Shown here piece after piece: positions 1,369 to 61,201 of a stretch of 64,000 nucleotides of DNA. The translations under genes were made by a program, and so were the position numbers. A model generated the notes under the pieces. That model had not been told where the DNA came from. It was given only the letters and a program-made list of their open reading frames with translations, and made no database searches. Within the stretch, counting starts at the first letter, position 1, and the number at the start of each line of letters is the position of its first letter. The stretch is from an uncultured Aquimarina sp. GTDB taxonomy: Bacteria > Bacteroidota > Bacteroidia > Flavobacteriales > Flavobacteriaceae. The stretch covers positions 62,001 to 126,000 of the forward strand of contig CANLYR010000005.1 of the NCBI GenBank assembly GCA_947495425.1. The letters run 5' to 3'.

Positions 1369-1405
1369 TTTTTACCATCCTTTGAATTTACTGGGATAAA
1401 TGGTA

Positions 1406-1494
1406 TTATATAATTGCTTTAGCTTTTCGAGACTGTGCTTTTGCTAAAATTTCCATTTTGCAGAGATCAAACTGCTTCATTTTTATACAAAAAA
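1406..1494 (-). pseudogene. Decayed 3' fragment of an rpfF-like crotonase gene
   Basis: The minus strand reads in one frame CIKMKQFDLCKMEILAKAQS followed by RKAKAII and a stop at 1406. This aligns with the C-terminus of the intact crotonase at 10210-11061 (CMKIGKFDLRKMEILVHAQS, then RKGK). DNA identity over about 75 bp is roughly 70 percent by eye. The fragment is cut exactly where the PepSY gene stop codon begins (1495). It is too short to be functional and marks a past rearrangement. Confidence 0.75.
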
Positions 1495-3359: not shown

Positions 3360-3362
3360 ATT

Positions 3363-25475: not shown

Positions 25476-25862
25476 TTATTTTTTACATTTATTACAAATA
25501 CCTATAACTAAAAACTGGGTCTCTAACACTGTAAATCCTTTCAAATCTGGCATGTGTAATGTATTAGGCTGACAAGTTACTTCCTGACATTCTTGACATT
25601 CAAAATGGATATGATTATGGACTTTATGAGATATTCCACAGTTATTACAAAGTGCATAATGTGTTTTTCCATTTTTACCAGTAACAAAATGAACTTCTCC
25701 TTTTTCAACAAATCTATCTAAAATTCTATAAATTGTAGTTTTGTTTACTTTTACAGGCATAGCCAGCATAATATCTTCAACAGACATAGTATGCCTTGTT
25801 TTGGATAAAATCTCTTTTACCAGATTTTGTTTTTCAGTATTTCTTGTTTTCTTAATCTCCAT
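25476..25862 (-). CDS. Fur-family metalloregulator (Zur/Fur-like)
   Basis: 128 residues from ATG 25862; the frame is open further upstream but without a better start. Winged helix in residues 1-70 (MSVEDIMLAMPVKVNKTTIY, then RILDRFVEKG), then a Cys/His-rich dimerisation part: CNNCGISHKVHNHIHF (Cys72, Cys75, four His), CQECQEVTC (89-97) and CNKC (123-126). The paired CxxC motifs form the structural zinc site of the family. The extra CxxC at 72-75 is less usual. Whether it answers to zinc or iron cannot be told; it lies alone, convergent with the protease gene. Confidence 0.85.
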   Translation of the reverse strand: MEIKKTRNTEKQNLVKEILSKTRHTMSVEDIMLAMPVKVNKTTIYRILDRFVEKGEVHFVTGKNGKTHYALCNNCGISHKVHNHIHFECQECQEVTCQPNTLHMPDLKGFTVLETQFLVIGICNKCKK

Positions 25863-26119
25863 GGCACAATATTGAAACTCCTGCACTATATCTAAAATAG
25901 TAAATTTTTGATCATAAGAGGTGTTTTTTAGCAAAATTGAAAAGATCAAGTATGAATACCTTATGTATCAAGTGTAACTAATGTATGAAGTAATCAACAA
26001 AAAACTATAAAGTGTCTAGCTAAGCCTCCTTTTTAAACTACGATTAGCGAGAACAATGCAACAGTAAAAAAAATTGACCGTTTTTATTTAACTTAGCTCG
26101 CTATTCTTACTCTAATTAT

Positions 26120-33011: not shown

Positions 33012-33018
33012 AAAGACT

Positions 33019-34872: not shown

Positions 34873-34930
34873 ACAAGATCAAATCAAAAAAAATCAGTGT
34901 TACAATATATATAAACAGCATACAAACATT

Positions 34931-45211: not shown

Positions 45212-45522
45212 AAATGTAGCTATTGGTGTGAGAAGTTAAAGCTATTGTATACGCTTCTTTAACCTTATCGCTATTGAAACAATCATTGACTCATTAATAC
45301 TTTTTATACATACGCATTGACTTTGAAAAAGTTTTCTTTTAAGCGAAGCATTTGATATTAAGATAAAAGTGCTTAGAATACAATATACAGGAGTCAAAAT
45401 GCAGAATTCTTTCTCTTAAAAATGAACAAGAATATTTTGCAATTTTGATTTCGTTCTTACTCATTCTTTTTATGTTGAGGGTCTCACTATTAAAAAATGG
45501 TAATAATGTTATCTTTACCAAT
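45212..45522. promoter_or_regulatory. Divergent region upstream of catalase, with inverted repeat
   Basis: 311 bp. GTTAAAG (45235-45241) and CTTTAAC (45257-45263) form a perfect 7-bp inverted repeat 15 bp apart, 24 bp upstream of the catalase start; candidate operator. Nothing else recognised. Confidence 0.35.
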
Positions 45523-46572
45523 ATGATAAAGCTAAAAACCTTCTTATATCTAGTTATCTTCGTTTCCGCCTATGCAGTAGCGCAAAAACCTTTTGTATTT
45601 CAAAATGAACCTATCGAACCGGGAACCAAAAATCATTTTGAAATACCTGTGATTAGTGAAACAGACAGCACCTTTATTCCTATTACTATATTTCATGGTT
45701 CAAAACCAGGTTCAGTTTTAGGAATAACAGCAGGAGTTCACGGCTACGAGTATCCACCTATCCTTGCAGCTCAGCAATTGAATCAAAAAATTGATCCCGA
45801 GAAATTATCAGGAACTATAATTTTGGTACAGATAGCCAATGTGCCAGCTTTTTTGGGAAGAAGTCCATTTTTAAACCCATTGGATCATAAAAACTTGAAC
45901 CGATCTTTCCCAGGAGATGCTACTGGATCTATAACCCATCGTATGGCAGACATCCTCACTAAAGAAGTGATTGCTAGATCTGATTTCTTCGTGGATATGC
46001 ATGCTGGGGATGCACCAGAAGATTTACGGTCTTATAATGCCTGGTATCATAGTGAAGCACTTCCAGAAGTTTCTAAAAAAGGACGCGAAATGGCCATGGC
46101 TATGGGGTTTGATTATTCTATCATATTCAATATTCCAGAGAAGCGACTACAGAAACCTAGTTTGTATTGTTCACAAGAAGCCTTTCATCGTAAGATCCCT
46201 GCTGTAGATATTGAGTGCGGAAGATTAGGTATCCCAGACAAAATAAAAACTAATCGAATTGTAAATGGCATGTTGTCTTTATTAGCGCATCTCAAAATGA
46301 TGAATTCAGGCAAAAAGGAGACCTCAACAAAACCAATAGTCATATCACAACGGTTTACTATCAAAAGTAAATCTACCGGGCTTTTCTATACCGAAAGAAG
46401 AGCAGGAGATTTTATTAAAAAAGGAGAACCTGTTGGATACATTACCGATTTTTTTGGCAATACAATAGAAAATATCAGAGCATCACAAAGTGGAATGATT
46501 TTATATATGATTGGCACTCCCCCTATTAATAAAGGCGAAACTATTATGAATGTAGGTGTTATACCAAAGTAG
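45523..46572 (+). CDS. Secreted M14-like zinc hydrolase (succinylglutamate desuccinylase/aspartoacylase family)
   Basis: 349 residues from ATG 45523, with a signal peptide (KTFLYLVIFVSAYAVAQ). Zinc-ligand motif GVHGYEYPPILAAQ (His and Glu), the loop NPLDHKNLNRSFPG and FFVDMHAGDAPEDL follow the order of the family. It ends with a beta-rich domain (FTIKSKSTGLFYTERRAGDF). Likely a periplasmic deacylase or carboxypeptidase; substrate unknown. It is convergent with the permease gene at 46575, only 2 bp apart. Confidence 0.85.
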   Translation: MIKLKTFLYLVIFVSAYAVAQKPFVFQNEPIEPGTKNHFEIPVISETDSTFIPITIFHGSKPGSVLGITAGVHGYEYPPILAAQQLNQKIDPEKLSGTIILVQIANVPAFLGRSPFLNPLDHKNLNRSFPGDATGSITHRMADILTKEVIARSDFFVDMHAGDAPEDLRSYNAWYHSEALPEVSKKGREMAMAMGFDYSIIFNIPEKRLQKPSLYCSQEAFHRKIPAVDIECGRLGIPDKIKTNRIVNGMLSLLAHLKMMNSGKKETSTKPIVISQRFTIKSKSTGLFYTERRAGDFIKKGEPVGYITDFFGNTIENIRASQSGMILYMIGTPPINKGETIMNVGVIPK

Positions 46573-46574
46573 TT

Positions 46575-47921
46575 TTATAAACGTCTTACCATGGGTATAG
46601 AAATCAAAATCATACCTATTGAAGCTATTACAATTGGGATCATGCTTTGTACTAGAGATACGTTTGGGGTAGCTTCGTGATATTCTGGAGTAAATTGATT
46701 CCAATCGATAGTATCGGCCTTTTGTTTTTCAAATATTTTTGGGTAGAAAAATAATCTTAATTTTTCATGAAAGGCATCGGTAGCTTCTAAATACTCCATT
46801 TGTTGACTCATACTTGTTCCGGCTAATTGATTAAAGACGAGCTGTAAATACATATTAGGAAGTACCGTTGTAATTTTTCTACTAGCCAATTCACGTAGTT
46901 TTATCTTCTCATTTAGTGCATCCCGCTCATTTCTTGAGTCATCATCCCCCATTTGTTGCATGGCATAATACCATAACCAGTTGAAGCCATCGGTAGGGTA
47001 TCCATATTTTTTGAATTGGGGATAATGCTGATAAAACTTTTCAATGGTAGCCAATTTATCGGTATCCCATTTGGTATGATATCCATCGCGTTGTGCTATA
47101 GCTGTACTTAAAGCTTCTGGCACTGGGTACTTAGAGGATACATAGGCATTGATTCCTGCTGGTAAAAGAATAATCAATACCAACCAAACCGATAACAATA
47201 ATAATGCATTAAAGCCAGAAGATTTGTTAAAAGTAATAATGAAAAAAGTAAGCGTAAACCAAAACAAGACATAGAGCATGGATAATCCTAACATCCATAT
47301 AAAGTTAGTATTAAAAGGTAAGTTAAGTACTAATTTTGCAATGAAAAAAAGAAATATAAGTATGGTATACAAGAGCATCAACCGGATTAAAAGTTTGGAA
47401 ACAACGAACCCTAATTTGGATGTTGCTTGAATAATAACTAATCGCCAAGTACCGGTTTCAGTTTCTTCAGAAAGCACATTAAAAGTCAATACTATGACCA
47501 ATAAGGGTAATAGATAAATAATTACAAACGATACATCGAGGTTACCCGATTGTAAATTCATTGGATTCACCAAATCGGTATCATATTTTTGTGCTTCAAA
47601 CGTCTTAATTGTAATTCGCTTTACCGTAGGATTTACATCTGCCTGACCAATAGATAATCCAGCTAGGGGATTTAAGGTATTGATATAGGCAAAATTTGCG
47701 TAATACAATAACAACCCCAGGTCTTCATTATGAAGTGCTACTTGTCGATCAAAATGTTGTTTTTGATAGGCATGTACTTCTGCAATAGCATTTTGCTGCC
47801 TTTCAAGGTGTTTGTGCCCAATAATAATACTAACTACACCTAAAAGAGTAATGAGCAATAGACTCATCCAAACCTCTTTTGATCGAATACATTGCTGTAA
47901 AAATAATTTGAATGTTATCAT
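46575..47921 (-). CDS. ABC-2 type permease, DUF3526-like (arm A, permease 2)
   Basis: 448 residues from ATG 47921, overlapping the previous gene by 4 bp. One N-terminal helix (WMSLLLITLLGVVSIIIGH), a large extracytoplasmic loop, a bundle of helices ~150-290 (FVIIYLLPLLVIVLTFNVLS; LLLLSVWLVLIILLPAGINA), a second large loop, and a C-terminal helix. Topology and the VLSEETETGTWRLV signature fit ABC-2/DUF3526 permeases. Paralogue of the frameshifted gene at 56308-57730. Partner of the ATPase at 52081. Confidence 0.82.
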   Translation of the reverse strand: MITFKLFLQQCIRSKEVWMSLLLITLLGVVSIIIGHKHLERQQNAIAEVHAYQKQHFDRQVALHNEDLGLLLYYANFAYINTLNPLAGLSIGQADVNPTVKRITIKTFEAQKYDTDLVNPMNLQSGNLDVSFVIIYLLPLLVIVLTFNVLSEETETGTWRLVIIQATSKLGFVVSKLLIRLMLLYTILIFLFFIAKLVLNLPFNTNFIWMLGLSMLYVLFWFTLTFFIITFNKSSGFNALLLLSVWLVLIILLPAGINAYVSSKYPVPEALSTAIAQRDGYHTKWDTDKLATIEKFYQHYPQFKKYGYPTDGFNWLWYYAMQQMGDDDSRNERDALNEKIKLRELASRKITTVLPNMYLQLVFNQLAGTSMSQQMEYLEATDAFHEKLRLFFYPKIFEKQKADTIDWNQFTPEYHEATPNVSLVQSMIPIVIASIGMILISIPMVRRL

Positions 47922-49357
47922 ATCGCCTTTGCTTTTTTTGATGTGAAGTGAAGTAACCAGAAAGCAGCTAGCACCCATAATACTATAGAAATTAATGCGG
48001 GAAAAGCTTCTTTAATTGATTTTGAAAATACCATAGGTTGATGATTAAAATCTTGAAATTTCTCCCAATGTTCATGGTCTACTACATGAGTTTTTCCTTC
48101 AGAGCCGCTCTTCTTTTTTGGACTTATATATTCCATTTGTAGTTCATTCATGGTTTGCGCTAATTCGTAACGATAGGTATCCGCTTGGTTTTGAAAATTT
48201 ATATAGGATGAAAAATCTGTTCCTGCCATGGTCATCGATACCAGTTTTATCGCTGTAAAAGGATTGATAAAAGAAGAAAAAATAGTAACATCATTCTGAC
48301 TTTCATAGATATTAACCAATTTTTTATGATGTTTTTTATATAAAGAAGATGTGATTTTTTCTCCTTCTCGCATGACAAATCCTGAATAATTAAAAGGTAA
48401 ATCGGTCACTTTACTCACATTATGAGCTTTTAAAACAGAATCCTTTAGGCTATTGTAATGAGGATCATCAGGGTTATGACTATCCCCTTTTAGAATGACT
48501 TCTTCCTCAATAGCAGATTGAAAGGCTAATTTACTTGGAGTAGGAAACCAGTAATTCCCCATGGCTTGCGTAGATTTTGGCAAAAGTATCACAAGTAGTA
48601 GCCATATCCCTAATAATCGTAATAGCGCATTTTTTGAAGTATTACTAGTTGCTGACATCACGATGGTTAAAGAAGAAACAATATATAAGAACGCTACATA
48701 ACTAAAGGCAATTAGTAAGAAGCGTAGCCATTCAAACTGGTCATCAAGTAGTAAAAGCGTAGTAATTACAACCAAAAGAACAGGAATTAAAAAAAGCAAA
48801 GAAACTGCTAAAAGTCCTATTGATTTTCCGAATAGTATTTCCTTCCAGGTAGCCCCTTGTGATAATACTATTTTTAAGGTTCCGTTCTCTCGATCTGCAG
48901 CAACACTAGAAAAGCCTACAAAAAACAAAATTAGCGGTAATACCAACTGTAGCAACAAAGCTAAACTTAATTCACCAAACCTAAGCATACCTGTAGAAAA
49001 CGTGGCTTCAGAAAAATTGACACTATTTTGCCGATGTGCCTCTAGAAACACTGTACTTCCTGTAAAACTTTCTAATCCATAATCAAATATTCCCAATGGG
49101 GGATGTATCCGAAATGCAAAAGTCCCAAAATGAGCCATCCGGTGAGGATGTTTATCAGGATTTGCTTCCCAGCTTTGTCTGGCTTTGACTTGATGTTCTT
49201 TTCTTATCTCATTTTGAGTGTTATGATTTTTTACACCACTAACAGCTGCATATCCAGACAGCAGTACAAAAATGAAATATAATAGATAAAAAGTTTTAGA
49301 TGTTGTCGCATTATGCCAAAAATTTAATGCGAATATGCTTACATTTGCCCGTTTCAT
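47918..49357 (-). CDS. ABC-2 type permease, DUF3526 family (arm A, permease 1)
   Basis: 479 residues from ATG 49357. N-terminal helix (FYLLYFIFVLLSGYAAVSGV), extracytoplasmic loop with HPHRMAHFGTFAF and GSTVFLEAHRQN, six-helix core (ADRENGTLKIVLSQGATWKE between helices), second loop, C-terminal helix. The loop words recur in the paralogue at 54901 (NPHSAAHYGTYAF; GTSIFLEAHKHN). The His-containing loop could touch a metal or ligand, but this is only suggested by conservation. Same family as the NosY-associated permeases. Separated from the receptor gene by a REP-like repeat. Confidence 0.82.
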   Translation of the reverse strand: MKRANVSIFALNFWHNATTSKTFYLLYFIFVLLSGYAAVSGVKNHNTQNEIRKEHQVKARQSWEANPDKHPHRMAHFGTFAFRIHPPLGIFDYGLESFTGSTVFLEAHRQNSVNFSEATFSTGMLRFGELSLALLLQLVLPLILFFVGFSSVAADRENGTLKIVLSQGATWKEILFGKSIGLLAVSLLFLIPVLLVVITTLLLLDDQFEWLRFLLIAFSYVAFLYIVSSLTIVMSATSNTSKNALLRLLGIWLLLVILLPKSTQAMGNYWFPTPSKLAFQSAIEEEVILKGDSHNPDDPHYNSLKDSVLKAHNVSKVTDLPFNYSGFVMREGEKITSSLYKKHHKKLVNIYESQNDVTIFSSFINPFTAIKLVSMTMAGTDFSSYINFQNQADTYRYELAQTMNELQMEYISPKKKSGSEGKTHVVDHEHWEKFQDFNHQPMVFSKSIKEAFPALISIVLWVLAAFWLLHFTSKKAKAI

Positions 49358-49434
49358 ACGTTTATTTTTTATCGTTTTTTTCTGGTTTTGAGATTGTCTG
49401 AAAAGCGTACCGTTTGCTATCTTGTCATATATAG

Positions 49435-49473
49435 CCCTTCGACGGAGACTCAAGGACAGGCTCGGTCGAAGGG
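49435..49473. repeat. REP-like inverted repeat
   Basis: Perfect 9-bp arms CCCTTCGAC (49435-49443) and GTCGAAGGG (49465-49473) around a GC-richer core. Resembles the dispersed TTCGAC...GTCGAA palindromic repeats common in Flavobacteriia. Lies between receptor and permease genes of arm A. Confidence 0.5.
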
Positions 49474-49548
49474 TATAAAAACTAAAGAGTATAGCTTCTC
49501 GACGCTACTCTAAATAACAGAGATATTTACTTTTTTAAACAATCCCAT

Positions 49549-52056
49549 TTAGAATTTATACGTTGTAGTTAACAATACATTTCTAGGAGCTCCCGGAAAA
49601 AGTCTAGTCGCATTTAGCGCTCCGTTCCAATAGTTTTCATCAAACAAATTATTAAGCTTCAGCGCAATTTGCATATCGACTCCAGTAGGGCGATAATACA
49701 CTGCTGCATCGAATACCGTATACGATGGTAATTCGATACGATCTCCATACCAGGACAAACGATCTCCACGATATACTGTTCCTAAACCTACGCCAATATT
49801 TTTAAGAGCGCCATGCGTAAAATCATATCGCCCCCAAAAATTGGCACTATGCTCAGGTGCTCCCCCTATACGTTCGCCAATTAAAGCGGGATCATCATCT
49901 TCTATGATTTCGGCATCGATAAAGGCATACGAAGCACTTACTTGTAGGTTCGGCAATATATATCCGTTAAGATCCCACTCAAAACCTCGGCTACGTTGTT
50001 CTCCTCGTTCTGTCAATAAAGATTCATCATTAGGATCTTGCTGTAATAGATTTTTTTGTGTTATCTGATATACGGCAGCATTCATCGTTAATTTTCCACC
50101 TAAAAATTCTCCCTTAGCACCAAATTCTATATTGTCACTTTCTAAAGGATCAAAACTAGCTGGAGAAGGAGGCAAACCTTCACGAGAAAAACCCCAGAAA
50201 AACTCTTCGGTAGCTGGTGATAATGTAGTCGTATTAGACTGTGGCTGAAATCCCGCTACATAAGAGCCATAAACACTAATAGTTTTAGTAGCTTCATACG
50301 TTACTCCTATTCTAGGTATAAATGCTTCATTTTTAAAAGATTCTTCATTGTTAGAATCATAATCAAAAATATCTTCATACCAATCATAGCGAAGATTCAA
50401 TAAGGCAGAAAATTTACCTATCTTAAACTGGTTCTGAATATAGATACCATTTGCAGTGGTAAGATTTGCCGGTATTGCAAACTCAGAGGTGATATAATTT
50501 GAAGTTTCTCTTGCAGTGTTATTAGGGTTTGCAAGATCAAAATGAGCAACATTAGGTCTTGGAGCAATAACACCGTCGATCTCGATTGTTTCAAACTGAT
50601 CTGCTTCTGCTGGGTCAAATGAGGTTGCTCTACCGTCCAATCTTCTGTAACGTCTTGCTCCATTAGAAACTCCTCCTAAAGTACGCTCCCATCTACTTCC
50701 ATCGTATCCTGCTAAAAATTTGTTTGTGATATTATCATTTTCAATATCATAATTGATGAATGCGCTATAATTGTCTGTTACCCAAAATTGTTGTCTCTCT
50801 GTATAGCGTAGTTCGGCTAATGTGGGTATAGAATTTCCTGCAATATCTATTGCAGCAGAACCAGCCACACGATGTTCTGCAAGGTCTTCTTCCCAGGTTT
50901 GCTTCATATAAGAAGCATTAAATCCTAAATTATCAGTAATTTCTTTACTAAAATTACTAATCACCATAAATTCTTTTGAAGCATAAAAATCGTTGGCAGC
51001 ACCCACATTTGTAGAAATATCGGTACTATTTAAATCAAATTCACCATTGATAGCTCCAAAGAGAGGCTGGCCTCTATCTAGATTACCCACACCGTTGCTA
51101 TAGATCATCTCTACGTTAAGCGCCGTAGTTTCATTGGGTATGAAGGTGATGGAGGGTGCTAATAAAAATTGATTGTTTTGCACCAAATCCCGAAAAGATC
51201 TTGCTTCTTGGATGGCGGCATTAAATCTATACAATAGCGTTTCAGAGTCATTTACGGATCCTGTAAAATCTGCTGTTGCTCTAAGCGTTCCAAAACTTCC
51301 TACAGTAGCACTTACCTCACTCCTTTTTTCTTTCAGTGGTTTCTTTGTAACCAAATTAACAGATCCACCAGGGTCTACACTAGAAAAAGTTACTGATGAC
51401 GGTCCTTTAATCACTTCTGCTCTTTCTATATGCGAAGTAATAGGTTGTAGAAAATAATACTGGCGCGTTCTCATACCATTGATAAGTTGACCATCTTCTG
51501 CCTGAATGATACCTCTAATATTAAAATGATTATAAAACCCGGTATGCGTTACACTACTCGAAGTTTTTATGGCATCAGCAATCTGAAAGGTTTGTCGATC
51601 ATTCATTAACTCCTTAGTAATGGTTGATACCGCTTGAGGCAATTCTCTATTTTTTATGGCAACTTTGGTAGACGAAAATGAATAATCACTATTATAATCT
51701 GTACGTGCACGACCAACGACTTCTACACTCTGTAGTTGTTCTGTTCCTTCTGCTAAAGTAATGGTACCTATATCAAGAGGTGTACCTTCACTAACTTCTA
51801 TAGTATTTTTATAAGCCTGAAATCCTAAATATCGTACTTCAAAGTTGTAATTTCCTGAAGGGGCATTTATTTCAAATTGTCCGGAGTTATCCGTTAGTTT
51901 TTCAAATGTATTCGCTGTGTTTTTTAGCGAGATCGTAGCACCTATAATCGGAGTATTTTTGGCATCAACGATGGTTCCTGTTACTTGTACTTGTGCAAAA
52001 GTAGCACAACTACATAAAAGAAATAAAAGGAAGGGTAATGATTTAAAAAGTTTCAT
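49549..52056 (-). CDS. TonB-dependent siderophore-type receptor (arm A)
   Basis: 835 residues: signal peptide ending CATFAQ, carboxypeptidase-like domain ~22-110 (VQVTGTIVDAKNTPIIGATI), plug ~130-245 (LPQAVSTITKELMNDRQTFQ; FNIRGIIQAEDGQLINGMRT; VIKGPSSVTFSSVDPGGSVN), then the barrel with a PEHSANFWGRYDF-type segment and a final GAPRNVLLTTTYKF strand. The plug words are those of FhuA/FhuE/FpvA-like siderophore receptors. It lies inside an ABC operon, 24 bp after the ATPase gene, which is unusual for a simple siderophore receptor. Confidence 0.9.
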   Translation of the reverse strand: MKLFKSLPFLLFLLCSCATFAQVQVTGTIVDAKNTPIIGATISLKNTANTFEKLTDNSGQFEINAPSGNYNFEVRYLGFQAYKNTIEVSEGTPLDIGTITLAEGTEQLQSVEVVGRARTDYNSDYSFSSTKVAIKNRELPQAVSTITKELMNDRQTFQIADAIKTSSSVTHTGFYNHFNIRGIIQAEDGQLINGMRTRQYYFLQPITSHIERAEVIKGPSSVTFSSVDPGGSVNLVTKKPLKEKRSEVSATVGSFGTLRATADFTGSVNDSETLLYRFNAAIQEARSFRDLVQNNQFLLAPSITFIPNETTALNVEMIYSNGVGNLDRGQPLFGAINGEFDLNSTDISTNVGAANDFYASKEFMVISNFSKEITDNLGFNASYMKQTWEEDLAEHRVAGSAAIDIAGNSIPTLAELRYTERQQFWVTDNYSAFINYDIENDNITNKFLAGYDGSRWERTLGGVSNGARRYRRLDGRATSFDPAEADQFETIEIDGVIAPRPNVAHFDLANPNNTARETSNYITSEFAIPANLTTANGIYIQNQFKIGKFSALLNLRYDWYEDIFDYDSNNEESFKNEAFIPRIGVTYEATKTISVYGSYVAGFQPQSNTTTLSPATEEFFWGFSREGLPPSPASFDPLESDNIEFGAKGEFLGGKLTMNAAVYQITQKNLLQQDPNDESLLTERGEQRSRGFEWDLNGYILPNLQVSASYAFIDAEIIEDDDPALIGERIGGAPEHSANFWGRYDFTHGALKNIGVGLGTVYRGDRLSWYGDRIELPSYTVFDAAVYYRPTGVDMQIALKLNNLFDENYWNGALNATRLFPGAPRNVLLTTTYKF

Positions 52057-52080
52057 TGTATGAATTATTTTATTTTAAGT

Positions 52081-52776
52081 TTAGATCGTTTTTAAGTATA
52101 AGTCTTGTAATTCTGTGGCACTGATGGTGTCTGTATCAGAGGTATGCACTAGCTTTCCCTCTTTCATAATACCGATTTTGGTTCCCACATTTACAGCATT
52201 AAAGATATCGTGTGTTGCCATAAAAATAGCCTTGCCTTGATTGCTCAATTCTTTACAGATTTCAGTAAACTCGAGTGTGGCTTTGGGATCTAAGCCTGAG
52301 ATAGGTTCATCCATAAAAATATAATCTGCATTTTTAGAAAGAGCAATAGCAATCCCTACTTTTTGTCGCATCCCTTTGGAATAAGAAGATAATTTTTTCT
52401 GATGCGCAGTTTCCTGAAGCCCGGCTTTTGATAAAAAATCAGATAATACCGTATTTGTATATTTAAAACCAGCTAATCTACTGAAGAAATTTAGGTTTTC
52501 TATACCAGAGAGATTTCCATATAATTGCACAACCTCTGGAATATAAGCAATCATTTTAGTCGTTTTGTTACTATTTGGCTTAACAGTAATTCCATTAATC
52601 AATGCTTCGCCACTTGTGGATTCGATTAGCCCTAAAAATAGATTGATCGTAGTGGTTTTTCCTGCACCATTTTGACCTAGTAAACAAAATATTTCTCCTT
52701 TATCAACTGATAAATTTAATTGACTAAGTGCTTGGTGCTTACCATATGTTTTGGTAAGATTTATAGCTTTAAGCAT
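52081..52776 (-). CDS. ABC transporter ATPase (arm A)
   Basis: 231 residues with Walker A GQNGAGKTTTIN, signature YSKGMRQKVGIAIAL, Walker B YIFMDEPISGLDP and switch His in MATHDIF. The short C-terminal tail and sequence fit ABC-2 type exporters (CcmA/NosF-like). Its partners are the permeases at 46575 and 47918. Clearly paralogous to the ATPase at 54188. Confidence 0.9.
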   Translation of the reverse strand: MLKAINLTKTYGKHQALSQLNLSVDKGEIFCLLGQNGAGKTTTINLFLGLIESTSGEALINGITVKPNSNKTTKMIAYIPEVVQLYGNLSGIENLNFFSRLAGFKYTNTVLSDFLSKAGLQETAHQKKLSSYSKGMRQKVGIAIALSKNADYIFMDEPISGLDPKATLEFTEICKELSNQGKAIFMATHDIFNAVNVGTKIGIMKEGKLVHTSDTDTISATELQDLYLKTI

Positions 52777-53024
52777 AAGTGAGATGTAAAAATAAGGTTG
52801 ACGATTTGTGTTTTATACTCGAATATTATCGACGAAAATCTAGTTATATAAAAAGTACCTTGCTCTGTAGTGTTCGTATGTTGTAGACTCTAAATACTCT
52901 GCTATCATGTTTTTCCGGCTATCTAATTAAAAGATATAAACGCTGGTAATGAATCAGAGTAAAAATTAATGTTCAAATATAATTTTGAAACACTACTAAA
53001 ATTTAAAAATAGGCAGTACTTTTC

Positions 53025-53330
53025 TTATGTAAGCGGCGGTGGTTTATTGTAAATAAAAATTGGAGAAGCGATAGTTTGCTGTGGCGAATTGTATTCAGTG
53101 TATACAATTCTTGAATTTGGGATGCGCTGCGATGCATTTTCTGGATAAGAATTATCATAATTGATCAAATCAAGCTGGTATGAATCAACAAGGATATCAC
53201 AAAGCTCACAAGAAAAAGAAGAATCATCATCTACCGAATGGCTTAATGCGTGTATGTTTGCAATCCTTGGAATAAGGAAAGCCGCTACAAACAAAAGAGT
53301 GACGATATGTGTAAGTACGCGTTGGTACAT
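53025..53330 (-). CDS. Small secreted CELC-motif protein (arm A)
   Basis: 101 residues: signal peptide/hydrophobic start (VLTHIVTLLFVAAFLIPRIA), then IHALSHSVDDDSSFSCELCD followed by ILVDSYQ, a Ser/Asn-rich middle and the tail YNKPPPLT. It shares R(I/V)A..HA.SH..DD.....CELC and the terminal YNKPPP with the protein at 53592-53921. His, Asp and the CxxC could bind a metal ion. No known family recognised. It heads the minus-strand arm (248 bp before the ATPase gene). Confidence 0.65.
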   Translation of the reverse strand: MYQRVLTHIVTLLFVAAFLIPRIANIHALSHSVDDDSSFSCELCDILVDSYQLDLINYDNSYPENASQRIPNSRIVYTEYNSPQQTIASPIFIYNKPPPLT

Positions 53331-53591
53331 ATCTGCAATATTAGGAATAATAAAATAGACATCCTTATTTTAACACAATTTTAAGTTTTACGCTATGAAT
53401 TCAAAGAAAGCAGTATAAATTTTGTTTTGAAAAATTGAAATTTATGAACGACTGTGCCTATTGATATCAAAAAGAATTGTGTACCAAAAGTATCTGATAT
53501 TAAAAGAACTTTGTTTCCACCTTAATCCAAGAAAAGAATTCTTATCAATATCTTAAGATTTAAAAATCTAATTAATTACTATATTGGTCGC

Positions 53592-53921
53592 GTGAGAGTG
53601 CATTTTTATAAATATATTATTTCTTTTTTCTTCCTTTCGACTTTTCTAGTATTAAGAGTCGCTGATGCACATGCTTTTTCTCATTTTTCTGATGATAGTG
53701 ACCCTATACATTGTGAATTATGTGAGATTATAACAACATCTAACCAATTTACGTTACTATTTAATGGATCATTTACTGAAGAATTGACGCTACAATGTAA
53801 TGCCTTCACGACCGTACACATCAATTTTTGCTACGAAACATCACAATACAGCATTACACGACCTCAAAGTGTTTATAACAAACCTCCTCCTGCAATACTT
53901 AGCATTGCAGATTTTTGTTAG
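53592..53921 (+). CDS. Small secreted CELC-motif protein (arm B)
   Basis: 109 residues from GTG 53592 (GTG 53598 also possible). Hydrophobic signal (YIISFFFLSTFLVLRVADAH), then HAFSHFSDDSDPIHCELCEI, three further Cys, and YNKPPPAILSIADFC. Paralogue of the protein encoded at 53025-53330, oriented away from it, and heading the plus-strand ABC operon. Likely periplasmic or surface; proposed metal-binding accessory, unproven. Confidence 0.65.
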   Translation: MRVHFYKYIISFFFLSTFLVLRVADAHAFSHFSDDSDPIHCELCEIITTSNQFTLLFNGSFTEELTLQCNAFTTVHINFCYETSQYSITRPQSVYNKPPPAILSIADFC

Positions 53922-54187
53922 GAATATCAATTCATAGGACTACACTTTGTCTTATACTACTTTGTAGTTTTGAAAGGTTTACAATTTACAGTATTAAGTG
54001 CTTACATAAGCAAGAATAGTGTATCTACACTTTATCATCATTCCTTTAAGTGATTGGAGTATTGTAAACCATTTCCTAATTCAATTAAATCATACCGCAA
54101 CATACTTCTATACGATTATGGTGTTTATGAATCGACATACTGCATGTACTGCTGTTCATCCATATACTAAATATTAATTCAGTCAAA

Positions 54188-54904
54188 ATGATTACTACAC
54201 AAAACCTTACAAAAAAATATAATGATCAAACTGCTCTTGATCAGTTAAATCTTAACGTTAACAAAGGAGAAATCTATTGTTTATTAGGAGCTAATGGTGC
54301 TGGCAAAACCACTACGATTAATCTTTTATTAGGATTTATTGAACCCACTTCGGGGAGTGCTTTGATCAATGATTTAAATGTATCACAAAAAGCAAAAGAA
54401 ACTAAAAAAATTCTAGCATATATCCCAGAGAATCTGATGCTGTATCCCAGCCTAACCGCTATTGAAAATTTAGATTACTTTTCGGGCATTGCCGGTAAAA
54501 AACTTACTAAAGAAAATGTAATCTCTTTCTTAAAAGAAGCAGGACTGCAGGAAAATGCTTTCGAAAAAAGAATAACCGCTTTTTCTAAAGGAATGCGACA
54601 AAAAGTAGGGATTGCTATTGCTCTCGCCAAAGATGCTAAAGTTTTACTATTAGATGAACCTACTTCGGGACTAGACCCAAAAGCTAGTAACGAATTTGGG
54701 CAACTCCTTCACAAGCTTTCACAAAAAGGTGTAGCAACCTTGATGGCAACACATGATTTATTTAGAGCAAAAGAAGTGGCTACACATATCGGGATTATGA
54801 AAGATGGTCAACTTAAAGAAGAATGCATTGCCCGTGATATTTCTTTACGCGATTTAGAGCAAACGTATTTAAGTACTATGAATTATAAAGAAGTTGAATT
54901 ATGA
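54188..54904 (+). CDS. ABC transporter ATPase (arm B)
   Basis: 238 residues: Walker A GANGAGKTTTIN, signature FSKGMRQKVGIAIALA, Walker B VLLLDEPTSGLDP, switch MATHDLF. Its best match inside the window is the arm A ATPase, from which it differs mainly in the C-terminal tail. It overlaps the following permease start by 4 bp (ATGA), so stoichiometric synthesis is likely. Confidence 0.9.
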   Translation: MITTQNLTKKYNDQTALDQLNLNVNKGEIYCLLGANGAGKTTTINLLLGFIEPTSGSALINDLNVSQKAKETKKILAYIPENLMLYPSLTAIENLDYFSGIAGKKLTKENVISFLKEAGLQENAFEKRITAFSKGMRQKVGIAIALAKDAKVLLLDEPTSGLDPKASNEFGQLLHKLSQKGVATLMATHDLFRAKEVATHIGIMKDGQLKEECIARDISLRDLEQTYLSTMNYKEVEL

Positions 54905-56304
54905 CCAGAAAAACATTCTTTAAGGAAAGTAAAGAGCTATTTCGTGACGGACGTGTACGTGTAGCAATGATTATTGTAGTTATATTAATGTGTGTATCCG
55001 TATGGATTAGTGCACGGCAATATCAAAATATAAATGAACAATATAAAGTAGCCAACACTTCAGAAAGAGCTATTTGGGATAATCAGGGTGAGAAAAATCC
55101 GCATTCTGCAGCACATTATGGCACCTACGCTTTTAAACCTAAGTACCCTTTATCTCTGGTAGATCAAGGAGTAGATAAATATGCAGGGACTTCTATTTTT
55201 CTAGAAGCCCACAAACATAACGAAGCACAATTTAGTGCTGCATCAGACCAAACTGGCCTTGCCCGTTTTGGAGATTTAACTCCAGATTTTATGCTCTTAT
55301 TTATGATGCCATTGCTGATTATACTTTTAGGATACAATAGTTTTACCAAAGAACATGAGATGGGAACACTTACGCTGCTTAAGAGTCAAGGAATTTCTTC
55401 CTGGAAATGGATAGCAGGCAAATGGGCAGCACTTTTTCTTCCTATTTTAATTTTGACTACAGTGTTATTCATAATAGCAGGTTTGATCTTATCAAATCTA
55501 AGGGACTTTGGTGTTTTTGATTGGAATGCTCTACTTTGGATGTACCTCGTTTATACAGTATACTACATTATTTTTGTCAATCTGATATTGTTCATTTCTG
55601 CAAAAACAAAAAAATCTGGAATTTCTCTAGTAGTAGCATTATCACTATGGATTTTATCATGCCTGGCAATTCCTAAAGCTGCCAGTAATATTGCTGAAGA
55701 TGCATATCCATATCCTACCCGACAAGAGTTTGCCGCAAATGTTCTGAAAGACAAAAAACAAGGTCTAGATGGTCATAACCCCTGGAGTAAAAAAGCGCAA
55801 CGATTAAAAGAAAATGTATTAGCCGAGCACGGCGTGGATAGTGTACACAAGCTTCCTTTTAATTTTGATGCCTATCGCATGCAAAAAGGAGAAGAGCATG
55901 AAGCCGAAATTTATTTTAAACATTATAATTATCTCAAAGAACAATTTGTGAAACAATCCAAAGTTTATAAGGGATTGGCTGCATTTTCACCGTATCTACC
56001 TACCCGTTTTATGAGTATGGCCATCGCCCATACCGATTATGCTACGCATTGGAATTTTGCTGATGCCGCAGAAAACTATCGCATCGCTACTCAGAAATTC
56101 CTAAACAAGAACTTTGAACAGAATGCGGCCTATGGCGACTGGTCTTATCGCGCAGATGCTAATTTCTGGAAACAACTACCCGCTTTTGAATATTCACCAC
56201 CTCAACTTGGGGCTGTACTTTCGCAAAACTTCTCTAATCTTGGAGTTTTAGGATGCTGGCTTGTTGGTTCTTTTGCTTTACTACTATTCATCAAAAAAAT
56301 GTAA
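54901..56304 (+). CDS. ABC-2 type permease, DUF3526 family (arm B, permease 1)
   Basis: 467 residues. N-terminal helix (VRVAMIIVVILMCVSVWISA), loop with NPHSAAHYGTYAF and GTSIFLEAHKHN, helix core (FMLLFMMPLLIILLGYNSFT), second loop, and the DUF3526-type end KQLPAFEYSPPQLGAVLSQN before the last helix. Paralogue of the permease at 47918-49357. Works with the ATPase at 54188; its normal partner permease (56308) is frameshifted. Confidence 0.85.
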   Translation: MTRKTFFKESKELFRDGRVRVAMIIVVILMCVSVWISARQYQNINEQYKVANTSERAIWDNQGEKNPHSAAHYGTYAFKPKYPLSLVDQGVDKYAGTSIFLEAHKHNEAQFSAASDQTGLARFGDLTPDFMLLFMMPLLIILLGYNSFTKEHEMGTLTLLKSQGISSWKWIAGKWAALFLPILILTTVLFIIAGLILSNLRDFGVFDWNALLWMYLVYTVYYIIFVNLILFISAKTKKSGISLVVALSLWILSCLAIPKAASNIAEDAYPYPTRQEFAANVLKDKKQGLDGHNPWSKKAQRLKENVLAEHGVDSVHKLPFNFDAYRMQKGEEHEAEIYFKHYNYLKEQFVKQSKVYKGLAAFSPYLPTRFMSMAIAHTDYATHWNFADAAENYRIATQKFLNKNFEQNAAYGDWSYRADANFWKQLPAFEYSPPQLGAVLSQNFSNLGVLGCWLVGSFALLLFIKKM

Positions 56305-56307
56305 ACG

Positions 56308-57730
56308 ATGTTCTCATACAATTTTAAATACGAATTAAAACTACTGCTTCGAAGTAAATGGATTCAATTATTAAGCATTCTTTTATTGTTGTTATTTGGA
56401 TTTTCAACCTATAACGGAAAAGAAAAAGTAGCCAAACGAAACGCAGATGTTGTTGCGGCCAAGAATAAAGTGAAAGAAAACGACCAAATGATGCTCCAAT
56501 TATTGGATTCTATAGAAAAAGGGATGCCAGTTAGTGCTTCGCGATGGACCATCCCTACCAGTCCTATGGCCTTAGGGAATTATCACCCTCGTATCGCTGC
56601 CGTAGCATCTCAACCTATGGCGTTTGTGGCTACAGGACAGGCAGATCTTTTTACACATTATGTAAAGCCCAAAGTGACTGGAGATGATTTTGCATTAAAC
56701 TTCACAGAGATGACTAGCCCTGTTCAATTATTGTTTGGTAGCTTTGATCTAGCCTTTGTTATTGTCTATTTATTACCCTTACTCATTATCGCTTTTTCAT
56801 ACAATGTGCTGTCCTCTGAAAAAGAAAATGGTTCGCTACGATTACTTGCCTCTCAACCTATTGGGATTCAAAACTGGGTATTGCAAAAGTTATCCCTTCG
56901 ATTTTTTTGGTTATCTGCTCTTGTGATACTTTCGTTGTGTGTAACTTTTTTAATTTTTGGTATAGATTGGTTTTCTATGTTGAAATCATTTTTATTAATC
57001 ATTGGGCTTATCGTATCCTATATGCTCTTTTGGTTTTCACTGGCTTTTTTGGTTAACCTTTGGGGAGGAAGCTCTGCAAAAAATGCAATTTCTCTATTGG
57101 GATTGTGGGTGCTTTTTGTACTACTAAGTACCGTCTATGCTAAATCAACTAAGTACTACGCTATATCCAATGCCTTCACGCACCCTACTAATTAACGAGA
57201 TGAGGGAATTAAAAGCTGAGGTCGCTAAAGAACAAGATAAAATTCTGGATAATTTCCTAAGAGATCATCCCGAATATGCAATTAATGATACCACGCAAAC
57301 ACGAGGGTTTTATCATAAATATGTGGCTTCTCAACGACTGGTTAAAGAAGAACTGAAACCAGTGCTTATCGCGTATGAAAATCAACTACAAAAACAACAG
57401 GCATGGGTAGAACGACTAAAATGGGTATCACCGGCAATCACAATACAAGAGTCCTTAAATAAAATGACCGGGACTTCTACAGGAGATTACGAGCATTTTC
57501 GAAAACAAGTAGTCGCTTTTGCTGAGACCTGGAGAGATTTTCTAACTCCTTTTCTCTACAATAATGAGAATTTTACGCAAAAAGATTATCCAAAGCTCCC
57601 TCAATTCGTATTTCAACCTAAACCTCAATCAAAACCATTTTTGGTTCCGGTTGTTCTTTTATTGATCTCCACTTTATTTTTTGGCATTGGATATATCGCT
57701 TCAAAAAAACCAAGGAAAATAGTATATTAA
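56308..57730 (+). pseudogene. ABC-2 type permease, arm B permease 2, broken by a +1 frameshift
   Basis: The first part (56308-57195) reads a helix, loop and membrane core, then runs into a stop at 57193. The second part continues in another frame from about 57128 to 57730 with the expected loop (INEMRELKAEVAKEQDKILD) and C-terminal helix. Removing one A at 57126/57127 makes LLVPSMLNQLSTTLYPMPSR, which aligns with LLPAGINAYVSSKYPVPEA of the arm A paralogue. The site is not a long homopolymer, so a real mutation or an assembly error are both possible. Both halves are otherwise well preserved, indicating a recent event. Confidence 0.8.
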
Positions 57731-57742
57731 ATCCACTCTGAT

Positions 57743-59953
57743 ATGAGATATTATATACTGATAATCAATTTCATAATACCAATAACGGTCGTTGCCCAAC
57801 ACCAAGGAGTTGATAATTTTCCGCCGCCAGAAACGACTGTAAAAATTAATGCTACAAGAACTTCTGGAAAGATAACTATCGACGGTAAATTAAATGAATC
57901 TGACTGGCAAAATACAGAAGCCGTTACAGATTTTTTTAGAGTAGAACCGACACAAGGAGGAGCAATCAAAAATCCTACAGTTGTGAGCGTACTTTATGAT
58001 GACAAACACCTGTACTTTGGTATATTTGCTGCAGATTCATTAGGGAAGAAAGGTGTGCGGATTCAGGATTTGAGGCGTGACTTTGATGATGAAGAAAATG
58101 ATGTATTCGGTATTCAAATTGATGCGCAGAACACCAAACAATATGCAGCCTCTTTTCAGACAACTCCTTACGGAAACCAGTTAGACCTTCAAAGTTTTAA
58201 TGATAACAATACCGATACGGATTGGAATGCGCTTTGGACGGTTAGAACGCAGCGAACAGATAAAGGGTACTATGCAGAATTTGCAATACCCTTTAAATCC
58301 ATACGATATGACACCCCTGTCACAGGAGTTCCGATTGAGTGGGGCATTACATTTTATAGACTGGCACGAAAGGATTTTGAAAAGACGGTTTTTCCTGCTA
58401 TTCCGCAATCCTTTTCACAAAACAGAATGGTATATGCCGCCAAGCTTACCGGTTTAGAAGTTCCTCCGCCATCAGCTAACATTCGTATCGAACCTTATAC
58501 GTTGTATCAATATGACGAAAACAAAGTAGGGAATACCACGACCAACAAATTAAGTGAGCCCAAAATCGGAGGCGATGTAAAATGGGCAATTAACCCAAAT
58601 GCAGTATTAGACCTCACGATTAATACTGATTTTGCTCAGGCTGATGTTGACAGAGCCGTAAATAATCTGGAACGTTTCAATATTTTCTTTCCTGAAAGAC
58701 GACAATTCTTTTTAGAAAACTCTGGTATTTGGGCCGGAGGAGGTAATTCTCAATTACGCCCTTTCTTTAGCAGAACTATTGGATTAGAAAATACATTTAA
58801 TGCTGCTCCTGCTCCACTGGATTTGGGAGCTCGTTATACCAATAGAAATGAAAGCCGAACTATAGCTGCACTTGCTGTTCGCCAGAGAGAAACAGACAAT
58901 AGCCCGGCCAGTACATTTGGCGTAGCGCGATACACCCAAAACTATGGTAAAGAAAATAATGTTGGGGCTATGGTTACTCATCGATTAGATGATTCTTCTA
59001 ATGATATAGGAGTTTCTTCACAAAACAATACTACTATTTCTATTGATGGATTGATACGACCCATAAGTGAATTGACTGTTTCTTATCTACTCTCTACCTC
59101 ACTAGATAGTGAAACCGGTGATACGGGATATTCAGGAAGACTATTTACCGGGTTGCGTACTAACAAATATTACCTTGGATACCTCAACACTTTTGTAAGC
59201 GATACATATTCACCAGATATGGGATTTGTGTTTCAAAAAGATGTGATGTATCACAGTCCAGGTGGGTATGCTATTCTACGTCCGAATGGATTACCCTTTG
59301 TGCGAAGGTGGGACCCCGGTGCCTTCTTTAATTATTATCATGATTTTGAAAATTTTGGGAATTTTCAACAAGCTAGCCTTTATATATTTCCCATTTTTAC
59401 ATGGTTCAAAGACAACAGCTTTGTAGAGGCTTCTTTTACACCGACCTGGCAAAATATTAATTTTAATTTTGCTCCTTTAGATCTCGAAATTGAAGAAGGA
59501 AACTACCGTTATACTCGATTCTTATTGCGATACAATACAGATCAATCTAAAAAATTATCAGCTTCTATTCGATATGATTTCGGGAACTTTTATAATGGTA
59601 CACGTACTACAGTTATTTCTGGATTACGCTATGCACCACTGCCACATATCGCACTATCTGCAGATTATGAGCATAATAATATCAATGGAGTAGGGATTCT
59701 ACAAGAAGATTTAGACACTGATTTATATACGGCAAGCCTAAGGTTAGCTTTGAATCCCAGGGTGCAACTGTCTACTTTTTACCAATATAATAGTTTTGAT
59801 GAACAGGGTCGGTGGAATGTACGTTTTAGTTGGGAATATATGCCTTTATCCTTTATCTATCTTGTACTAAATGATACGCAAACCGATGTTTTTGATCCCG
59901 TACAGCAAAACACACAATTTATTAGTAAGATCACCTTTTTAAAGCAATTTTAA
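57743..59953 (+). CDS. DUF5916 protein with CBM9-like N-domain (outer-membrane)
   Basis: 736 residues with signal peptide (YILIINFIIPITVVAQ). Residues ~35-230 are a CBM9-like fold (ITIDGKLNESDWQNTEAVTD; VSVLYDDKHLYFGIFAADSL; GYYAEFAIPFKSIRYDT). The rest is the DUF5916 part, likely a beta barrel, with NINTDFAQADVDR-type and FFPERRQFFLENSGIW words and a C-terminal aromatic residue (FLKQF). Starts 12 bp after the broken permease. DUF5916 proteins are widespread in Bacteroidota and of unknown role. Confidence 0.85.
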   Translation: MRYYILIINFIIPITVVAQHQGVDNFPPPETTVKINATRTSGKITIDGKLNESDWQNTEAVTDFFRVEPTQGGAIKNPTVVSVLYDDKHLYFGIFAADSLGKKGVRIQDLRRDFDDEENDVFGIQIDAQNTKQYAASFQTTPYGNQLDLQSFNDNNTDTDWNALWTVRTQRTDKGYYAEFAIPFKSIRYDTPVTGVPIEWGITFYRLARKDFEKTVFPAIPQSFSQNRMVYAAKLTGLEVPPPSANIRIEPYTLYQYDENKVGNTTTNKLSEPKIGGDVKWAINPNAVLDLTINTDFAQADVDRAVNNLERFNIFFPERRQFFLENSGIWAGGGNSQLRPFFSRTIGLENTFNAAPAPLDLGARYTNRNESRTIAALAVRQRETDNSPASTFGVARYTQNYGKENNVGAMVTHRLDDSSNDIGVSSQNNTTISIDGLIRPISELTVSYLLSTSLDSETGDTGYSGRLFTGLRTNKYYLGYLNTFVSDTYSPDMGFVFQKDVMYHSPGGYAILRPNGLPFVRRWDPGAFFNYYHDFENFGNFQQASLYIFPIFTWFKDNSFVEASFTPTWQNINFNFAPLDLEIEEGNYRYTRFLLRYNTDQSKKLSASIRYDFGNFYNGTRTTVISGLRYAPLPHIALSADYEHNNINGVGILQEDLDTDLYTASLRLALNPRVQLSTFYQYNSFDEQGRWNVRFSWEYMPLSFIYLVLNDTQTDVFDPVQQNTQFISKITFLKQF

Positions 59954-59983
59954 TTATAAGCTAAAAACAAAATATTAAATTCA

Positions 59984-61201
59984 ATGAAAAAACTACCTGT
60001 AACTGTATTAAGTGGCTTTCTTGGTGCAGGAAAAACAACACTCTTAAATCATATTTTGCATAATAAAGAGGGATTAAAAGTAGCTGTTATCGTTAATGAT
60101 ATGAGTGAAATTAATATCGATGTGCAACTTGTTAAAAATGAAAATACACTCTCTAGGACTGAAGAAAAGCTTGTAGAAATGTCTAATGGATGTATCTGCT
60201 GTACCCTAAGAGAAGATCTTATGGTAGAAGTAGAAAAATTAGCCAAAGAACAACGGTTTGATTATTTGCTTATCGAAAGTACCGGAATTTCTGAACCTAT
60301 TCCTGTAGCACAAACGTTTAGCTTTGCTAGTGAAGATGGGCAACTGGATTTGAGCCGTTTTAGCTACGTAGATACCATGGTTACCGTGGTAGATGGCTAT
60401 AACTTTCTAAAAGATTTTTCTAGCCCGCAATACTTAACGGATAGAGATCTTACCAATATCGAAGGTGATGATCGCACAATTGTAAACTTACTTACAGACC
60501 AGGTAGAATTTGCCAATGTAATTTTGTTGAATAAAGTTGATTTGGTAACAGAATCAGAATTACGGAATCTATATGATATTATCCATAAATTAAATCCAAA
60601 TGCTCATATCATTCCTACACAAAACTCTCAAGTTCCTCTACACAAAGTTATTGATACAGGTCTGTTTGATTTTGAAGAAGCAGAAGCATCAGCAGGATGG
60701 ATTCAAGAGCTCGAAAATGAACATATCCCCGAAACCGAAGAATATGGAATTGGTTCTTTTCTGTACAGAAAGAGCCAACCCTTTCACCCAGAGCGATTTT
60801 TAGATTTTGCTACAGCACACTTTCCGTCTAATATTATTCGTAGCAAAGGATTATTCTGGCTTGCTTCGCGACCTGACCAGGCTCTTATCTGGGGTTCTGC
60901 CGGGGGATCACTCAAAACTGATCCCGCAGGAGTGTGGTGGGCTTCGATGCCTTTTGGTGAAAGAATTAGCTATGCTTCATTTATCGATAATCAAAAGATG
61001 ATTGAAGCTGACTGGGACATTACATTTGGCGATCGTAAAATTGAATTGGTATTTATTGGTCAACATATTAATGTTGACCAGGTAAAAAAACAACTCGATG
61101 CCTGTTTGCTAACCAAATCAGAGATTGACCAATGGAAAAAAGGTGAGTTATCTACAAAAGATAATTGGCCTATAGCTAATTATCAAGAACCATCAATTTA
61201 A
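59984..61201 (+). CDS. COG0523 GTPase, CobW/ZigA-type metallochaperone
   Basis: 405 residues. Walker [18 protein letters not shown], the metal site [11 protein letters not shown] (CxCC), [16 protein letters not shown], and a CobW_C domain from ~270 to the end. COG0523 proteins deliver metals, most often zinc, to client proteins and are commonly zinc-regulated. It follows the DUF5916 gene by 30 bp, at the end of arm B. Its presence is the main reason to suspect a metal role for the whole locus. Confidence 0.9.

Follow-up and report, generated by a model that had tools for sequence, protein, structure and literature searches.

The stretch of DNA analysed here, 64,000 nucleotides of contig CANLYR010000005.1 from an uncultured Aquimarina sp. 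(positions 62,001 to 126,000; "the window"), contains two divergent operons with a common layout: a short open reading frame (ORF) with the motif CELC, a gene for an ABC ATPase, and genes for two permeases with a DUF3526 domain, as judged from the ORF list and from matches to Pfam and NCBIfam. We favour, with some confidence, the explanation that this is a zinc-acquisition locus, in which one operon (arm A) is a relative of the znuK-znuGHI genes of Caulobacter, the other (arm B) holds an old paralogue of the ABC genes, and the CELC ORFs are zinc-sensing leaders of the kind represented by CruR and CutF. The transporter part is already known in broad terms; the leader probably applies the CruR/CutF principle to zinc. 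We found no paper on a zinc leader of this kind in the open-access literature searched, and the CELC ORFs would be the first zinc-sensing leader peptides in that literature.

The two arms and the znuK-znuGHI genes

Arm A lies on the minus strand and begins with a CELC ORF (53025..53330). A long gap (52777..53024) separates this ORF from the ATPase gene (52081..52776), which is ZnuG-like by Pfam and NCBIfam matches and by comparison with the Caulobacter locus. Next come a gene for a TonB-dependent receptor of the siderophore type (49549..52056; 286.3 bits against TIGR01783, cut-off 223.5), in the position of ZnuK, and genes for two DUF3526 ABC-2 permeases, the ZnuH-like permease 1 (47918..49357) and the ZnuI-like permease 2 (46575..47921). 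Arm B lies on the plus strand, beyond a 261-base centre (53331-53591). It consists of a CELC ORF (53592..53921), a second long gap (53922..54187), the ATPase gene (54188..54904), the gene for the DUF3526 ABC-2 permease 1 (54901..56304), and permease 2 in two pieces, an ABC-2 membrane part (56308..57195) and, in another frame, a DUF3526 part (57137..57730). Genes for a DUF5916/CBM9-type protein (57743..59953) and a COG0523 GTPase (59984..61201) follow on the same strand. The GTPase scores 561.7 bits against the ZigA model NF038288, below the curated cut-off of 600, and is termed ZigA-like here. Arm B has no TonB receptor gene within the window. A genome-wide profile search found four DUF3526 matches, all of them in this locus. 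An earlier reading of the letters by a model (the original prediction) had placed the same ORFs on the same strands, and its assignments of DUF3526/ABC-2, ABC ATPase, TonB, DUF5916 and COG0523 proteins are backed by Pfam and NCBIfam.

The original prediction held that no system with this gene set had been published. This is not right for the transporter, whose type is already known from the Zur-repressed Caulobacter locus. The available text of a study of the Caulobacter crescentus Zur regulon (PMC4176598) describes a TonB receptor, ZnuK, and an ABC-2 system, ZnuGHI, which are repressed by Zur and raised by zinc depletion. The printed znuK box, scanned over genome contigs, matched 17 stretches, including one in Caulobacter vibrioides DSM 9893. 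There, a TonB gene runs divergently from one side of the box, and on the other side an ATPase gene is followed by genes for permeases of 482 and 451 amino acids (aa); these two are the only DUF3526 matches of the genome. Since the TonB gene, the ATPase gene and both DUF3526 permeases of that genome are together in one locus, we take arm A to be a system of the znuK-znuGHI kind. Arm A has the ATPase and the two DUF3526 ABC-2 permeases, with the TonB gene placed between ATPase and permease genes; a receptor gene in the same locus is a feature of arm A only. Permease 1 has four residues, H73, H77, E107 and H109 (alignment numbering), that are invariant in 57 of 57 rows, Caulobacter included, and that hydropathy places between the first two membrane spans. 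The window differs from the Caulobacter locus in having a leader ORF, a second ABC paralogue, and DUF5916 and COG0523 genes. No paper on DUF3526 by that name was found in the open-access literature searched, and the accessible text of a paper on ZepA and an "ancient zinc acquisition system" (PMC10957091) contains no ABC or Bacteroidetes terms. If our explanation is correct, it would place DUF3526 ABC transporters, whose Pfam name stands for unknown function, in zinc starvation.

The ATPases, permeases and CELC proteins are paralogous between the divergent arms, as had been predicted, with identities in protein alignments of 55% for the ATPases, 28% for permease 1, 29–33% for permease 2 and 35% for the CELC proteins. 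The proposal of a head-to-head duplication fared less well: the tree of permease 1 speaks against a recent event of this kind. In this tree of 57 rows, in which the tree tool flagged long branches, a 100/100 split (26 versus 31 rows) separates the two arms. Orthologues that are up to 82% identical group with permease 1 of arm A, on the side that also contains Caulobacter ZnuH; permease 1 of arm B has its own orthologues (up to 84% identical) beside it, together with the type C clusters described below. In alignments, arm A permease 1 is closer to its Caulobacter counterpart (34.5% identical over 432 aa) than to that of arm B (28% identical). Judged by these sequences, the arms are old paralogues that occur together in some genera, each with its own orthologues. 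Their divergent order is not fixed among relatives: genome G505 (L179) has both arms in divergent orientation, with FolE, a Zur-like gene and ZigA in between, and G447 (L180) has both on one strand. In three other loci (L187, L210 and L215), arm B is found directly 3ʹ of genes for a TonB receptor and a lipoprotein; the window's own genome has a lipoprotein gene of the same kind next to a CELC ORF on another contig (L086). Hence, a receptor may partner arm B elsewhere, in genomes other than this one.

The frameshift noted originally in permease 2 of arm B is present, with pieces of 295 and 197 aa in two frames that overlap at 57137-57195. In the nearest relative (L055) the frame is intact and encodes 477 aa. 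The split is thus either a lesion of this copy, in which case arm B of the window may be decaying, or a sequence error.

Anatomy and operon position of the CELC ORFs

We lean towards the view that CELC proteins are a family of zinc-responsive nascent-chain sensors, with no detectable sequence likeness to DUF2946, in which a C2H2-like site (HxxxH and CxxC) stands at a ruler distance from the arrest motif PPP and gates the expression of zinc transporters, at translation or at transcription; in this bacterial family it would add to the control by Zur or take its place. The arm A protein (101 aa) has a hydrophobic export signal, H27xxxH31, C41ELC44 and, at its C terminus, NKPPP followed by 2 residues. 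The arm B protein (about 109 aa, with a GTG start) shares these motifs, and its NKPPP is followed by 9 residues. Among 75 distinct CELC sequences, 73 have HxxxH followed by CxxC, and 74 have PPP (the remaining one has KAPP), although the profile used to collect the sequences contains these motifs, such that their presence is partly due to selection. The distance from CxxC to PPP is 50-54 residues in all 73 sequences in which it could be measured, and is 52 in 41 of them (standard deviation 0.84 in a subset of 72). PPP is followed by between 1 and 9 residues, 2 or 3 in 61 of 74 sequences, and its codons vary. The sequence between CxxC and PPP, by comparison, has a median identity of 17% (820 pairs of members with 52 residues there). 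Seven positions are listed as kept in ≥90% of 40 diverse rows: H27, H31, C41, C44 and P97-P99. The N terminus is hydrophobic in 74 of 75 sequences (14-residue hydropathy ≥1.8). AlphaFold2, run with 40 rows, predicted helices at residues 2-33 and 42-49 and no structure beyond (mean pLDDT 73.6, pTM 0.41). A search of the Protein Data Bank (PDB) with the CELC profile returned two zinc-finger chains that were not significant (E 0.6 and 0.83).

This anatomy resembles that of two leaders that act on copper. According to the accessible text on CruR (PMC9426467), a DUF2946 protein of Bordetella, its ORF is the first of an operon that includes a TonB gene. Copper is sensed on the ribosome by the CxxC of CruR, expression requires the RAPP at its C terminus, and how far apart CxxC and RAPP stand is important too; the spacing of both motifs is reported there for more than 2000 DUF2946 proteins. 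CELC ORFs are likewise short and exported, with a CxxC, a proline motif near the stop codon and a long gap ahead of a TonB gene. They differ from what is described of CruR in the metal proposed, in having [KR]PPP rather than RAPP, in the distance between motifs (50–54 residues versus 44-45 in four DUF2946 proteins that we fetched), in the additional HxxxH, and in that no sequence similarity was found. Thus, CELC shares with CruR and DUF2946 the architecture only, a CxxC and a C-terminal proline motif at a fixed spacing. In two loci, L043 and L179 (arm A), the CELC metal motif has decayed and PPP is kept. This fits the CruR pattern, since the same source reports that CruR cysteine mutants keep expression and lose control, but two cases prove little. 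CutF, from Rhodobacter and others, has CxxxC and a proline-rich end (PMC9973294, in the parts available). CELC ORFs pass the filters given there for CutF-like proteins, namely <150 aa, PP in the last 15 residues, an export signal (here by hydropathy only) and a next same-strand gene within 1000 nt (60 of 61 have a same-strand downstream gene). Bacteroidota make up 40% of the CutF-like list when normalised by proteomes, and 19% otherwise. The metals named for CutF-like proteins are copper, nickel and cobalt, and the word "zinc" is absent from the main text in those parts, whereas we propose zinc for CELC.

In the model that we propose, the nascent CELC chain would carry an export signal, a metal site formed by HxxxH and CxxC, and a C-terminal [KR]PPP motif of the arrest type at a fixed distance from that site. 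When zinc is scarce, the ribosome would pause at [KR]PPP, and the downstream transporter mRNA would be made or translated. When zinc is plentiful, HxxxH and CxxC would bind it on the nascent chain, the pause would be relieved and expression would end, for example by Rho. Zur would add a further or substitute layer, at transcription, in relatives. The TonB receptor would bring zinc or a zinc complex into the periplasm; the DUF3526-type ABC-2 transporter at the inner membrane would move zinc inward, load partners or export a helper compound; and the ZigA-like COG0523 GTPase would hand zinc on in the cytoplasm. The metal-sensing arrest peptides known so far, CruR and CutF, act on copper. If a zinc-sensing counterpart exists that forms a sequence family of its own and has a measurable ruler, this would suggest that the trick arose more than once, and would account for short ORFs of uncharacterised function that precede TonB genes in this bacterial family.

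The operon position of CELC ORFs was surveyed in 349 genomes of the family, Flavobacteriaceae. There are 102 CELC matches in 71 genomes and 111 DUF3526 matches in 51 genomes; 33 genomes have both, a co-occurrence with a Fisher p value of 2.7e-14 that is overstated, as are the other p values, because the rows are related. The number of candidates scored for CELC was limited in each genome, and the CELC ORFs of L181 and L186 were missed, so counts of linkage are lower bounds: DUF3526 follows on the same strand, no more than 9 kb downstream, at 32 or more of 102 CELC places, and CELC immediately precedes at least 31 of the 58 DUF3526 clusters. Eight clusters first counted as lacking CELC were fetched; the two just named have it, and it was not found in the other six (L182-L185, L187 and L188). 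A strict bond between CELC and DUF3526 is ruled out by the 70 of 102 CELC places without DUF3526 downstream (same strand, 9 kb). Hence, the co-occurrence of CELC with DUF3526 genes is borne out in part: 33 genomes have both, but 38 of the 71 CELC genomes are without DUF3526, which goes some way towards the original prediction's own ground for refutation. Those genomes notwithstanding, CELC ORFs are not scattered at random. We surveyed the next recognised same-strand gene for 61 of 90 profile matches, leaving out 29 in short loci. It encodes an ATPase in 28 cases, a TonB receptor in 26, ZigA in 2, DUF5829 in 2, MerC in 1 and a lipoprotein in 1; in the remaining case there is none. The median gap from CELC is 250 bases before ATPase genes and 210 before TonB genes. 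Terminator-like hairpins were found in 3 of 26 gaps downstream of CELC (L050, L045 and L049), and in neither gap of the window. In L034 and L063 a ZigA-like gene sits between CELC and the ATPase gene. The cluster in L190 (4429-5691) is decaying: it retains a CELC ORF, next to MerC and to what is left of the arm B ATPase gene, a remnant of 94 aa.

Neighbouring genes, the palindromic box and the metal

The original prediction called the system metal-related. The neighbours of relatives support this link and, by context, narrow it to zinc: genes for FolE, MerC, COG0523 and AztD-like proteins recur beside their CELC and ABC genes. With genomes of 4 Mb assumed, chance would place MerC no more than 10 kb from CELC in 0.33 of 43 possible cases, but it is that close in 15. 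On the same basis, 14 of 40 DUF3526 clusters have MerC at this range, against 0.24 expected, and the count for proximity to either is 26 of 58, against 0.57. In L179 the order is MerC, arm B, FolE, Zur-like gene, ZigA-like gene, arm A. In L182, MerC and FolE stand between a divergent Zur-like gene and the ATPase, TonB and permease genes, and MerC-FolE-CELC-TonB is the order in L197, L203 and L206. CELC and TonB are followed by DUF4625 and an AztD-like protein in L198 and in L085 of the window's own genome, where the AztD-like protein scores 87 bits (cut-off 400). For MerC, the accessible part of PMC2770081 offers an author name and references only. In L203 (positions 1-3477), LolD/FtsX-like ABC genes, a ZigA-like gene and a second COG0523 gene adjoin the Zur-MerC-FolE-CELC-TonB genes.

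From relatives we recovered a palindrome, TGCAACNNNGTTGCA, which we take, from gene context alone, for a Zur site. It has the form GTTAT..ATAAC, in contrast to TGCAAC...GTTGCA for the Caulobacter znuK-znuGHI box. Summed over 30 genomes of the genus, the exact pattern has 39 matches, versus 7 for the reversed control. In the window's own genome, the sole exact match lies ahead of MerC-FolE. In G008 (L106), the box is flanked by a Fur-family gene on one side and by MerC with a FolE-like frame on the other. L067 comes from another family; its box, which has one mismatch, coincides with the start of a Fur-family gene, after which come TonB, ATPase and permease genes, and MerC is divergent. L069, with the order ATPase, permeases, Fur-family gene, TonB, has boxes ahead of the ATPase gene and ahead of the Fur-family gene. 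L058 and L059 have doubled boxes immediately before the type A ATPase gene, and most type C operons are preceded by them as well. Among 19 box loci inspected for gene context, a subset of all exact matches, several precede peptidases, lipoproteins or a cysteinyl-tRNA-synthetase-like frame, and hence not classical zinc genes only. No shared palindrome of note was found upstream of the window's CELC genes.

It is consistent with a regulatory role of CELC that boxes are commoner where CELC is missing. Of the clusters with CELC, 7 of 32 have a Zur-type box in the 6 kb that precede the ATPase gene, versus 15 of 23 of those without (Fisher p 0.002, again for related rows). These 55 ABC clusters are the 54 extracted, with L128 dropped and the two arms of the window added. 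Three of the seven boxes at CELC clusters are 3.5 kb off, by a peptidase gene. Within 450 bases of the ATPase gene, the figures are 0 of 32 and 4 of 23, a comparison that is nearly forced because CELC occupies that space. A regulatory function would also account for where CELC is absent.

Type C clusters (L035, L037, L040, L052, L057, L061, L064 and L066) combine a TonB receptor, a protein of 394-396 aa, a DUF3526 ABC transporter, a DUF5916 protein and a MATE-type protein. They have no CELC. Seven of the eight have boxes, often two that are 38 bases apart; in L057 the locus stops at, or close to, the TonB gene. The 394-396 aa protein of L037 is DUF4374-like (24.9 bits, cut-off 25). The DUF5916 gene of the window recurs in relatives beside arm B and type C operons.

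Weighing the explanations

Several observations count against our explanation. Close CELC orthologues are constrained at the protein level in every part, the middle included (pN/pS 0.26-0.47), as would also be expected of a working secreted protein. A comparison of 22 CELC members with Pfam gave no match better than E 0.088, and none to DUF2946; hhalign, with a small set of 9 rows, gave a probability of 0.7% for DUF2946. Membership in DUF2946 is thus unsupported, and what we claim is a likeness of working, not kinship. The isolated C terminus of CutF caused no translation arrest in a SecM-type test, according to the available text (PMC9973294). No CELC ORF was found in the Caulobacter vibrioides locus. 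Genes for ABC-3 permeases (the ZnuB/MntB-type family) are present in 28 of 30 genomes of the genus, this one included. Hence, the DUF3526 ABC transporter need not be the inner-membrane zinc importer, and a lack of ZnuB-type genes is ruled out as the reason for the system. The three CELC-headed receptors tested resemble ZnuD weakly (83-145 bits, cut-off 950). Since the arm A receptor is of the siderophore type and L037 carries the DUF4374-like protein, another metal complex is possible for some members. In the window's own genome, the box is as frequent as its reversed control when exact (1 versus 1), and nearly so with up to 1 mismatch (7 versus 5 places). The CELC region of the window has no Zur-type box (best score 1.6 bits, training minimum 20); there is none near the arms either, so any Zur control of the window's own operons is hypothetical.

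Four other explanations must be considered. The constraint just described, the hydrophobic N terminus and the HxxxH and CxxC motifs would all suit a secreted or membrane-anchored chaperone that hands zinc (or copper) from the TonB receptor to the ABC transporter with PPP as a docking motif, and the invariant His and Glu residues between the first two predicted spans of permease 1 could receive the metal. We nonetheless consider this unlikely: just seven positions are listed as kept, no fold is predicted past residue 49, the distance between CxxC and PPP is held when the sequence between them is not, long gaps separate CELC from the next gene, and clusters can lack CELC, as six of the eight fetched do. 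The "secreted CxxC protein" of the original prediction is therefore doubtful, and the anatomy fits a nascent-chain leader instead. A different function for the ABC transporter is suggested by NosFY. NosFY, part of the Nos machinery, pairs an ATPase with an ABC-2 membrane protein and is tied to metal delivery. By analogy, the DUF3526 transporter could be an ATP-driven machine that loads metal between periplasmic partners rather than moving it across the membrane. This deserves some weight, but not much. The His-bearing loop between the first two predicted spans of permease 1 fits, and a PDB sequence search with arm A permease 1 gave, at E ≤1, no match other than NosY; with an E of 0.25, however, that similarity is marginal and not significant. 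The window also has two different DUF3526-domain permeases, and no NosD-like partner was recognised in the clusters, with no search aimed at NosD.

ABC-2 permeases are mostly exporters. This general point, the siderophore-type receptor of arm A and an SbnA-type gene in the window about 13.6 kb away (32007-33011) would fit export of a small zinc-binding metabolite, or zincophore, that the TonB receptor takes back. We regard this as improbable, since no biosynthesis gene was recognised in the clusters of relatives, where most flanking ORFs are unannotated, and since SbnA genes are without the box. Finally, the metal could be copper or iron. CruR and CutF respond to copper in the parts of the two reports available, the arm A receptor matches TIGR01783, the Zur-like proteins match NCBIfam weakly and best to a Fur model, and the copper receptor model TIGR01778 scores on CELC-headed receptors, below its cut-off. 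The FolE, MerC, ZigA-like and AztD-like neighbours, the shared box and the Zur-regulated Caulobacter relative all point elsewhere, and make copper or iron quite improbable as the metal served. On our reading, the CELC ORFs would be zinc-sensing regulators acting as nascent chains rather than secreted carriers.

A few features of the window and of box loci stand apart from these arguments. The window has one Zur-type box, with 2 mismatches (23987..24003); 26 of 100 shuffles also have one, so it is not significant alone. It precedes a gene for an S8 subtilase (24041-25402, plus strand), which is convergent with a Fur-family gene (25476..25949, minus strand) whose start is uncertain and whose product shares 33-35% identity with the Zur-like proteins of L106 and L179. 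Boxes ahead of genes for S8-like peptidases recur in the genus, in L042 (by Pfam) and in L090, L093, L095, L096, L103 and L104 (by BLAST to L042). In L105 (1540-1848), a box lies 39 bases ahead of a 102-aa ORF that has HDQDCELCSPFC and a C-terminal PPQA and is followed by a gene that, by eye, resembles one for an RND pump; the ORF may be a further metal leader, from a separate family. The convergent neighbour of arm A in the window encodes an AstE/AspA-type, DoeB-like deacylase (45445..46572, plus strand); it recurs beside arm A, and whether it belongs to the locus is uncertain. Further away, at 32007-36337, genes for the SbnA-type diaminopropionate synthase (394 bits against TIGR03945, cut-off 350), an FAD-NAD(P)-binding protein and a PLP decarboxylase stand in a row, possibly as a pathway for a small molecule that may be a metallophore.

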